The notes beneath the pieces are model-generated. The model searched no databases. It was not told where the DNA came from and saw only the letters and a list, made by a program, of their open reading frames with translations. This document shows, in pieces, positions 3,649 to 40,357 of a stretch of DNA of 64,000 nucleotides. Origin of the DNA: Gammaproteobacteria bacterium (GTDB lineage Bacteria; Pseudomonadota; Gammaproteobacteria; UBA6429; Thiohalophilaceae). Position 1 is the first letter of the stretch, and each line of letters starts with the position of its first letter. Location of the stretch: contig JAUVEN010000002.1 in assembly GCA_030594815.1 (NCBI GenBank), positions 1-64,000 on the forward strand, given 5' to 3'. A program made the translations under genes and the position numbers.

Positions 3649-4941
3649 TTAAAGTTTCTTTGAAGTAAAATACAACCAAATAAAACCTGAAAGCCCCGTA
3701 AGCAATGATGCAAATAAAATGCCTGTTTTCGCCATCAATAAATCTTCAGGCGAATGAGCAAAGCCTAGTTCCGCGATAAATATAGACATCGTAAAACCAA
3801 TACCGCCCATTAGAGCAACACCAATAATATGATTAAATTTTAGATCTTTTGGTAAAGAGGTTAGCCCAAGCTTTATTGCTATCCATGAGAACCCTGCAAT
3901 ACCCAGTAATTTACCTAAAACTAAACCTGCAGTAATGCCTATTGAAACAGGGTGAGTGACGATGCTACTTAAAGAACTCCATTCTATCGGTACACCTGCA
4001 TTGGCTAAAGAAAAAACAGGAATAATGATATAAGCGGAAGGCAAGTGCATGGTGCGTTCCATGATTTGTGCCGGTGCCTGTACTAAATGTACACCTTCAC
4101 CTAGTGCTTGTACTCTTGAACGTAGCTCTCCATTTTTAATAATATTTTCTTCCTTTCGGTAAGCATGTTTAATCTGTTCTACCATCTCATTTATATGGGT
4201 GAGAAAAAGAGAGGGTTCATATTTTGGACGCATTGGAATCGTGAAAGCGAGAAAGATACCGGCAAGCGTGGCATGCACACCACTTTTCAACATGGCTATC
4301 CAAAGAACAATGCCCAGTAAAACATAAGGAAGCGGACGACGTATTCCACCAAGGTTGAGAGAAACTAATAACAATAACAAGATAAAAACTGTAATCAACG
4401 CAGGGATACTAATGGTCTCGGTATAAAAAACAGCGATAACCATTACGGCGCCAAGATCGTCAACGATCGCAAGCGCGACTAAATAAGTGAGAAGTGTTTT
4501 AGGAATTCTTTTTCCGAGTAATGCTAAAGCACCCAGGGCAAAGGCAATGTCCGTTGCCATTGGTATGCCCCAGCCATCAAAGCTATGGCCTTGTGGATTA
4601 ATAATGATATAAATTAAAACCGGAACTACCATGCCACCAATAGCCGCAACGATAGGAAGTATTGCTTGTTTCGGATCAGCAAGTTCTCCAACTAATATTT
4701 CGCGTTTAAGTTCTAATCCTATTACGAAAAAAAACAACGCCATCAAACCATCGTTGATCCAGTGATGTAGAGATTTTGATAATTCAAATCCAGGAACGCC
4801 AATGGTAAAAGGTAATTCTAATATATGATGGTAAGCAGTACTCCACTGACTATTAGCAATATAAAGTGCTGCGACAGCACATAGCATAAGTAAAATACCA
4901 CTGGTCGTTTGACGATGTATAAAATCATCAAGTGGGCTCAA
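3649..4941 (-). CDS. nhaA: Na+/H+ antiporter NhaA, start disrupted by a repeat
   Basis: Electroneutrality and pH control by Na+/H+ exchange in the inner membrane is the expected role. The protein has about 11-12 membrane helices, the NhaA signatures GLELKREILVGEL and MATDIAFALGAL, and the paired aspartates in LAIVDDLGAV. The listed start is a TTG, the first possible initiator in the open frame, but the frame continues upstream in sense (reading EYIAPWEKAFDKV) without any ATG until a stop at 5005-5007. An ATG at 5019-5021 overlaps the stop of the upstream antiporter gene (TAATG) and looks like the true start, but three copies of a 10-bp repeat put it out of frame. One repeat copy would restore a continuous gene. 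Confidence 0.85.
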   Translation of the reverse strand: MSPLDDFIHRQTTSGILLMLCAVAALYIANSQWSTAYHHILELPFTIGVPGFELSKSLHHWINDGLMALFFFVIGLELKREILVGELADPKQAILPIVAAIGGMVVPVLIYIIINPQGHSFDGWGIPMATDIAFALGALALLGKRIPKTLLTYLVALAIVDDLGAVMVIAVFYTETISIPALITVFILLLLLVSLNLGGIRRPLPYVLLGIVLWIAMLKSGVHATLAGIFLAFTIPMRPKYEPSLFLTHINEMVEQIKHAYRKEENIIKNGELRSRVQALGEGVHLVQAPAQIMERTMHLPSAYIIIPVFSLANAGVPIEWSSLSSIVTHPVSIGITAGLVLGKLLGIAGFSWIAIKLGLTSLPKDLKFNHIIGVALMGGIGFTMSIFIAELGFAHSPEDLLMAKTGILFASLLTGLSGFIWLYFTSKKL

Positions 4942-4980
4942 TACCTTATCAAATGCTTTTTCCCATGGTGCGATATATTC

Positions 4981-5010
4981 TTTTTTAGTCTTTTTTAGTC
5001 TTTTTTAGTC
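4981..5010. repeat. Tandem 10-bp repeat (3 copies) in the nhaA start region
   Basis: TTTTTTAGTC occurs three times in a row on the plus strand and is followed by TTTTTTATCA. On the nhaA strand each unit is GACTAAAAAA, so each junction contains AAAAAAG, a slippery run. Because 10 is not a multiple of 3, gain or loss of a unit changes the reading frame between the upstream ATG and the rest of nhaA. Confidence 0.9.
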
Positions 5011-5020
5011 TTTTTTATCA

Positions 5021-6634
5021 TTAAGTAATCTCTAAAAAAATTGAATTATTAAGTTCTACGTGATTTGCAAATCCTGCACCTGCTTCGGTGTAGATATTAA
5101 ACACCGCTGTTGCCCCAGACTTCTTTAATAACTGCACTTCATCTGGAAATCTTGCAGTTGCAGCAATGAATCCGGGAAAAGAAATTCTTTGTAATTGTTC
5201 CAGTGCATCTAAATTGGCTTGAAGATTTGGTAGGGCCAACATAACAAGTTTTATACTATGATCTTGTGCTATTTTTTCCCAAAAATCAGCATCACTGGGA
5301 TCACCATGTAATACTTTTCGTCCTTTTAATTGATGCTTGTTAACTCGATAGCTATCAAAGTCTATACCTACGACAGTGTCACCATGACGTTCACGCATTT
5401 TGTCATATGCACCCGTACCGACTCGCCCCATACCAAAGATGGCAATAGTAGAGCCGTGTGTGTCGAGCAACGTATCATCTTCAAGTCTCTCTTTACGTTG
5501 AAACTTCAACCAGAATGATTTGAATTGGCTATAGAGTTTGTCATCAATATTATTGAGTGGAGCAGCAACAATAAATGATACGGAGAGTGCAATTGCAATA
5601 ACCACTAACCATTCGGCATTCATCCAACCATTTGATACACCAATTGCCGCTACGATAAGACCAAACTCGCTGTAGTTTGTCAGGTTTAACGTTGCCAACA
5701 GAGATGTTCGCGCACGTAGTTTGAAACGGGTCATGAGGAAAAACATGAGTGCAGATTTAAAGAATACAAAAGGAACCATTAGCAGGCCAATGATTAGCAC
5801 TTGCGGTGAAAAATAACCTGACATACCTATGGAGAGGAAGAAGCCCACCAGAAATAGATCTTTAAGTCCCAGCATCGACTTAGACATTTCGTTAGATTTA
5901 GCGTGGGTTGAGATCAATACGCCCATAATGAGTGCACCCAGATCACCTTTTACACCAGCCAGTTCAAACAGTTCGGCTCCACCCAAAGCCAGCACCAGTC
6001 CATATAGAACCAACAGTTCGCCATGCCCGGTTTTTTGCAAAAAATGGTGAAACAAAGGGCGCAATGGAATAAGGAGAAACAGCAGTAATGCCCAGAGTGA
6101 AGGTATTTTGCCTGTGGAAGCGGCCAGAAAAATAACGGCAGCCAGATCCTGCATCACCAAAATACCAATCGCAATGCGTCCATGCAGAGATCTCATTTCG
6201 CCTTTTTCTTCAAGAGACTTTACGACAAAGACGGTACTGGAAAAGCTCAAGGCAAAAGCAAGCATCAGTGAAATTTTAAGGTCTAATTCTGAGAAAAGGG
6301 ATGCGCCCACTAAAGCCAGGCCAAAAATAAGTGCACCGAAGGTAACGATAATGATCGATATATGCAGTACCGTTACAGACCATACTTGAGGGCGTATTAA
6401 TACTTTTAAATTTAATTTTAGACCGACAGTGAATAAGAGGAGTGTGATACCCAGGTCAGCAAGTTTTTGCAAAGTCTCGCCACTGGTAATACCAAAATAA
6501 TTAAGTATGAAACCTGTTGCCAGAAAACCAACCAGGGGTGGCAGGTTAATGTATCGTGCGAGGAAACCCAGCACAAAAGCCAGAGATATCCAGGTAACGT
6601 CACCAAGTGCAATTGCAACCCATTCAAAATCCAC
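5021..6634 (-). CDS. KefB-like monovalent cation:proton antiporter (CPA2) with TrkA-N domain
   Basis: This 537-residue inner-membrane protein has about 12 N-terminal helices of the CPA2 exchanger type (LGDLGAL-like signature GVKGDLGALIMGVL and LADLGITLLLFTVGL) followed by a cytoplasmic Rossmann domain (GMGRVGTGAYDKM, residues about 395-500) that binds nucleotides and gates K+ or Na+ efflux. The GTG start follows AGGAAAG at a good distance. Its stop overlaps the probable nhaA start by one base (TAATG), so the two antiporters are translationally coupled. The cation specificity cannot be read from sequence; kefB/kefC or ybaL are the nearest named relatives. Confidence 0.85.
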   Translation of the reverse strand: MDFEWVAIALGDVTWISLAFVLGFLARYINLPPLVGFLATGFILNYFGITSGETLQKLADLGITLLLFTVGLKLNLKVLIRPQVWSVTVLHISIIIVTFGALIFGLALVGASLFSELDLKISLMLAFALSFSSTVFVVKSLEEKGEMRSLHGRIAIGILVMQDLAAVIFLAASTGKIPSLWALLLFLLIPLRPLFHHFLQKTGHGELLVLYGLVLALGGAELFELAGVKGDLGALIMGVLISTHAKSNEMSKSMLGLKDLFLVGFFLSIGMSGYFSPQVLIIGLLMVPFVFFKSALMFFLMTRFKLRARTSLLATLNLTNYSEFGLIVAAIGVSNGWMNAEWLVVIAIALSVSFIVAAPLNNIDDKLYSQFKSFWLKFQRKERLEDDTLLDTHGSTIAIFGMGRVGTGAYDKMRERHGDTVVGIDFDSYRVNKHQLKGRKVLHGDPSDADFWEKIAQDHSIKLVMLALPNLQANLDALEQLQRISFPGFIAATARFPDEVQLLKKSGATAVFNIYTEAGAGFANHVELNNSIFLEIT

Positions 6635-40199: not shown

Positions 40200-40357
40200 T
40201 CAACGCAAAGGCGCGAAGAACGCAAAGTTCGCCAAGAAAATAAGGTGTGTTGTGTATTTAATTATTTTTAATGGCACGTAATTATGAAGCTCAATTTATT
40301 TTACATTAAAAACTCTGCGTTCCTTTGCGCCTTTGCGCCTTTGCGTTGGGTTTTGAT
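40200..40357. repeat. Palindromic intergenic repeat (family E) between bioB and bioF
   Basis: The left arm AACGCAAAGGCGCGAAGAACG and the right arm, containing GCGCCTTTGCGCCTTTGCGTT, are near inverted copies about 90 bases apart. The right arm holds a short tandem duplication (CCTTTGCG). Such repeats are common filler in this genome. Confidence 0.7.

Follow-up and report, generated by a model that had tools for sequence, protein, structure and literature searches.

Probable expansion of a 10-bp tandem repeat behind the start codon of nhaA in a bacterium of the Thiohalophilaceae

The nhaA gene analysed here, which encodes an NhaA-type Na+/H+ antiporter, is separated from its translationally coupled start codon by three perfect copies of a 10-bp unit, and in the present allele translation from that ATG ends after eight codons. 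Because the nearest relative at the locus carries a single unit and a further relative an intact ORF from the same ATG, the arrangement probably arose recently, when slipped-strand mispairing (tandem duplication) directly after the nhaA start raised the copy number from one to three and so broke this start; such a change is potentially reversible but looks unlike an evolved switch. The allele was found in the window, a 64,000-nucleotide stretch at the start of one contig, in which nhaA lies behind a second antiporter gene on the minus strand; all coordinates of the locus given below refer to that strand of the window.

The kef-nhaA junction and its tandem array

The upstream gene (5021..6634) encodes a CPA2/Kef-type cation:proton antiporter of 537 aa, identified from its ORF and matches to PF00999 and TrkA_N, and will be called kef. 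Its orthologues are 95% identical in genome G001, 91% in G006, and 80% in G003. As an earlier note on this DNA had stated, the ATG of nhaA (5021-5019) overlaps the stop codon of kef, and the TAATG at 5021 can be read directly from the sequence. The same is true of the order that follows, in which the start codon and leader ATGATAAAAAA (5011..5021), with the first A6 run inside it and the same ATG in G006 and G001, is succeeded by three GACTAAAAAA units (4981..5010) and then by GAATATATCGCACCATGGGAAAAAGCATTTGATAAGGTATTG. The units are supported by TRF, by alignment with G001, and by their uniqueness in the genome; they include 20 extra bases that break the frame, and the claim that three copies hold the ATG and nhaA out of frame was likewise correct.

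From the ATG, the frame reads ATG ATA AAA AAG ACT AAA AAA GAC TAA, giving the 8-aa product MIKKTKKD (4995..5021), with the TAA in the second unit. When copy number was simulated from this start, no unit (n = 0) gave 17 aa, one unit gave 450 aa, and every number from 2 to 12 gave MIKKTKKD. These values bear out the expectation that one copy would yield a continuous gene, as it does in relatives, and that two or three would yield a stop. The 10-bp unit itself carries TAA, and with at least three units TAA occurs in all three frames, so that no upstream start in any frame reads through the present array.

On the 3' side of the array, GAATATATCGCACCATGGGAAAAAGCATTTGATAAGGTA encodes EYIAPWEKAFDKV in the nhaA frame (4942..4980), ahead of the TTG at 4941. 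Frame simulation identifies this as a stranded N-terminal segment of NhaA, and homologues that have an upstream start in frame keep it, which agrees with the earlier proposal that the nhaA frame is open upstream of the TTG with conserved residues. Between the TAA of the first unit and TTG 4941, the nhaA frame contains no ATG, GTG, or TTG. From this TTG, a possible internal start or restart, 430 codons are open (3649..4941); their assignment to NhaA comes from alignment with the E. coli protein and from the curated models TIGR00773 (412.9 bits, cut-off 254) and PF06965 (485.5 bits), both matched over their full length. This is the single NhaA of the assembly.

The array, 39 bp in length, was scored by TRF as 3.9 copies with 100% match, and its score of 78 is the best of the window (the next is 51). 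Its units are probably young because they are perfectly identical. The 2.81-Mb assembly has no second four-fold phased A6N4 pattern, and a search of the family's 39 other genomes did not find the doubled unit. A repeat census of a 793-kb sample of the genome returned eight perfect arrays of this class, mostly outside long ORFs, of which the one in the nhaA leader is the third longest; of the other seven, a single one is clearly placed within a long ORF at its 5' end, and that array has a frame-neutral unit of 9 bp.

Several other repeats were observed in the same genome. Perfect copies of TTGCTAAGTT (x8.1) occupy an intergenic site immediately beyond a 253-aa ORF (L151, G000:C20, 4775-4855), and perfect copies of AGGTATTG (x8.9) run off a contig end (L141, G000:C10, 9186-9256). 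In the window, (CCTTTGCG)x3 lies at 40322-40345, some 20 bp ahead of the probable bioF ATG, and faces a counterpart in inverted orientation near 40203-40228. The doubled CCTTTGCG unit is found repeatedly in this genome and also in the congeners G004 and G007, and this repeat is probably a dispersed palindromic element. Within the nhaA array, four A6 tracts (4981-5016) are spaced exactly 10 bp apart; A6N4 spacing is the textbook pattern of intrinsically curved DNA.

The nhaA leader and gene in related genomes

In G001, the nearest relative at the locus (Kef protein 95% identical, dS 0.33), the leader ATGATAAAAAAGACTAAAAAAGAATAT holds exactly one unit and aligns to the window with a clean 20-bp gap. 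In G006, whose nhaA is 84% identical, the TAATG is shared and the sequence there is ATGATAAAAAATATTAAAAAAGAATAT, with a leader of the same length and a single continuous ORF of 451 aa, and G005 has a 458-aa ORF with a longer in-frame leader, MIKNIKRNKREYIAPWEKAFDKV. The perfect repeat is absent from the nhaA leaders of G006 and G005, and none of the 40 homologues checked has an array at the start of nhaA. In homologues from other genera, an upstream start reads in frame into the (A)PWEKAFDKV segment, and where the window has its TTG they carry an ordinary codon for Leu (or another hydrophobic residue); a few also have TTG there, and most of these have an upstream ATG too. Homologues beginning at the TTG position, the outcome that the earlier note had named as speaking against its reading, were looked for and not found in this NhaA subfamily. 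The window allele is thus derived, with a gain of two units, because G001 has one unit and G006, G005, and the other homologues have a continuous in-frame start. On these comparisons, the ancestral nhaA start is the ATG that overlaps kef and the ancestral leader is the one with a single unit. The same leader was found in none of the viral contigs searched.

The gene itself has a varied history among these genomes. In G001, the sister species, nhaA is a pseudogene: TGG has become TAG, 7 bp are deleted, and a larger deletion, of about 1.05 kb, has TGCATCATTG at both ends (L032 1860-2200). G003 has a kef orthologue without nhaA behind it, and no nhaA orthologue at comparable identity was found in G002, G004, or G007; because the assemblies of G002 and G004 are incomplete, its absence there is weak evidence. 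Judged from these sequences, nhaA is repeatedly broken or absent in the genus, and its loss or decay in the lineage of the window fits this pattern. In G005, the kef gene upstream of nhaA is cut to a 69-aa remnant (L034 2450-2659, minus strand), and an intact kef lies on another contig (L045 1501-3117).

Origin and consequences of the three-unit leader

An expansion of this type is ordinary in kind. The one-unit leader would already have held the direct repeat AAAAAAGA twice, 10 bp apart, and replication slippage (mispairing) on AAAAAAGA could have generated the 10-bp duplications. The expansion would strongly lower or abolish full-length NhaA, restart at TTG 4941 may allow a small amount of core NhaA to persist, and contraction to one unit could restore the gene, which would make the loss reversible in principle. 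Since the analysis covered one assembly of the species, other alleles may exist beside the three-unit one.

The state of the remaining coding sequence bears directly on whether NhaA is still made. The normal start is disconnected from it, as in a pseudogene, the product being the 8-aa peptide. Nevertheless, dN/dS for nhaA between the window's genome (G000) and G006 is 0.074, and the branch of G000 has 60 synonymous and 20 non-synonymous changes, against 55 and 21 on that of the intact G006. Neither measure reveals relaxed selection on the nhaA frame, although a very recent loss would leave no mark on them. Such strong purifying selection implies that any loss is recent or that core NhaA is still made from the TTG. 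The alignment with E. coli NhaA (PDB 1zcd/7a0w; TIGR00773, PF06965) runs from residue 4 to residue 4 and shares the same transporter core over its whole length, with TTG 4941 at the position of Met1; a product begun there would therefore contain the whole core. The two proteins differ in that the window's subfamily has the N-terminal (A)PWEKAFDKV extension, which E. coli NhaA lacks and which in the window gene is cut off from its start codon. A new promoter was considered and rejected: the one minus-strand sigma-70-like match (4952-4924) lies downstream of the array and would start transcription downstream of the TTG, and sigma-70-like matches overall are no more frequent than in shuffled sequence.

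The intact 430-codon frame and the intact segment upstream of the TTG speak against reading the expansion as a loss, and the internal TTG might suffice for function. It is conceivable, if rather doubtful, that nhaA is still functional with TTG 4941 as its new start, reached either by restart once the 8-aa peptide has ended or by direct initiation, minus its 20-residue N-terminal extension. The completeness of the core and the apparently intact selection on the 430 codons speak for such a start, as does an AAGG-type anti-SD match just upstream (-4.0 kcal/mol). However, only about 2 nt separate the end of this match from the TTG, a distance too short for good initiation, and equally good scores are reached by 13% of all TTGs in the window. 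Moreover, the extension is kept in nearly all close homologues, with Leu codons at the TTG position, and in the window the segment ahead of the TTG retains perfect conservation, as though selection had acted on it until recently. It is very improbable that the array is an assembly or sequencing artefact: the metagenome-type assembly is fragmented (162 contigs) and the repeat lies in a low-complexity stretch, but a 39-bp array falls easily within a short read, and an exact tandem gain of 20 bp is untypical of sequencing error.

A phase switch at nhaA, as the earlier note had suggested, would have copy-number variation in the population turn NhaA on and off, and this is improbable. What invites the idea is that the gene carries at its 5' end a perfect tandem repeat, out of frame and unique in the genome, with a full ORF at one unit and not at three. 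At contingency loci, every third copy number is ON. Here, among copy numbers 0 to 12, the ATG leads to an ON state at n = 1 alone, two or more units give a stop, and no frame stays open with three, which prevents the array from cycling as a contingency locus does; the one-unit state, in turn, leaves little repeat to slip on. Nor is the repeat maintained in relatives, given the single unit of G001, the leaders of G006 and G005, and the 40 homologues, and the census offers just the one frame-neutral array in a comparable position among seven. Known contingency loci such as Neisseria opa/P.II (CTCTT) and modA (AGTC/AGCC) resemble nhaA in having a short 5' tandem repeat whose copy number shifts the frame (reviewed in PMC3899988). 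They differ from the nhaA array, which has a 10-bp unit containing TAA, just three units, a single locus, and a single-copy ancestral state. For phase variation of nhaA by repeats, the literature yielded only a co-mention, in a paper on genome reduction in a tick symbiont. The contingency-locus model was set aside on the grounds of codon arithmetic and the lack of conservation. A semi-reversible version, in which a mostly OFF or low-expression three-unit population would return to ON under sodium or alkali stress by contraction to one unit, the TTG supplying a basal amount of NhaA, has an equally small chance of being correct. Least credible of all is programmed -1 ribosomal frameshifting at the A6 runs. 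The earlier note had likened the AAAAAAG of each unit to slippery runs, and A6G is indeed present, as in the A_AAA_AAG cassettes of dnaX and IS150/IS3-type elements; however, the canonical heptamer is in frame at the first run only, where a slip leads to GAC TAA and the product MIKKD, so that no in-frame X_XXZ_ZZN heptamer leads into the downstream ORF. A -1 slip at the second run (or at the following GAC) does restore the frame in simulation, to a 457-aa ORF whose product, if made, would contain NhaA peptides spanning MIKKTKKRLKKTKKEYIAPW, but the second run is read as T AAA AAA G and offers only an A_AAA tetramer. Of the six tetramers active in E. coli, A_AAA shifts least efficiently, even when a pseudoknot is present, and tetramers lacking a stimulator barely exceed background (0.147% versus 0.112%; PMC4066793). 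No stem-loop stimulator was predicted, the 35 nt after the second run remaining unpaired when nested folds were considered. Unlike the known cassettes, the nhaA arrangement is not conserved, and relatives need no frameshift.

Implications for NhaA annotation and evolution

The locus illustrates how a mechanical reading of a repeat with A6 runs can suggest a switch that codon arithmetic excludes. It also bears on annotation, since the lost N-terminal segment would go unnoticed if nhaA were called from TTG 4941. With recent slippage expansion as the probable origin, the allele would represent a clean case, from an environmental bacterium, in which tandem expansion of a 10-bp unit has destroyed a coding start while the remainder of the gene is still conserved.
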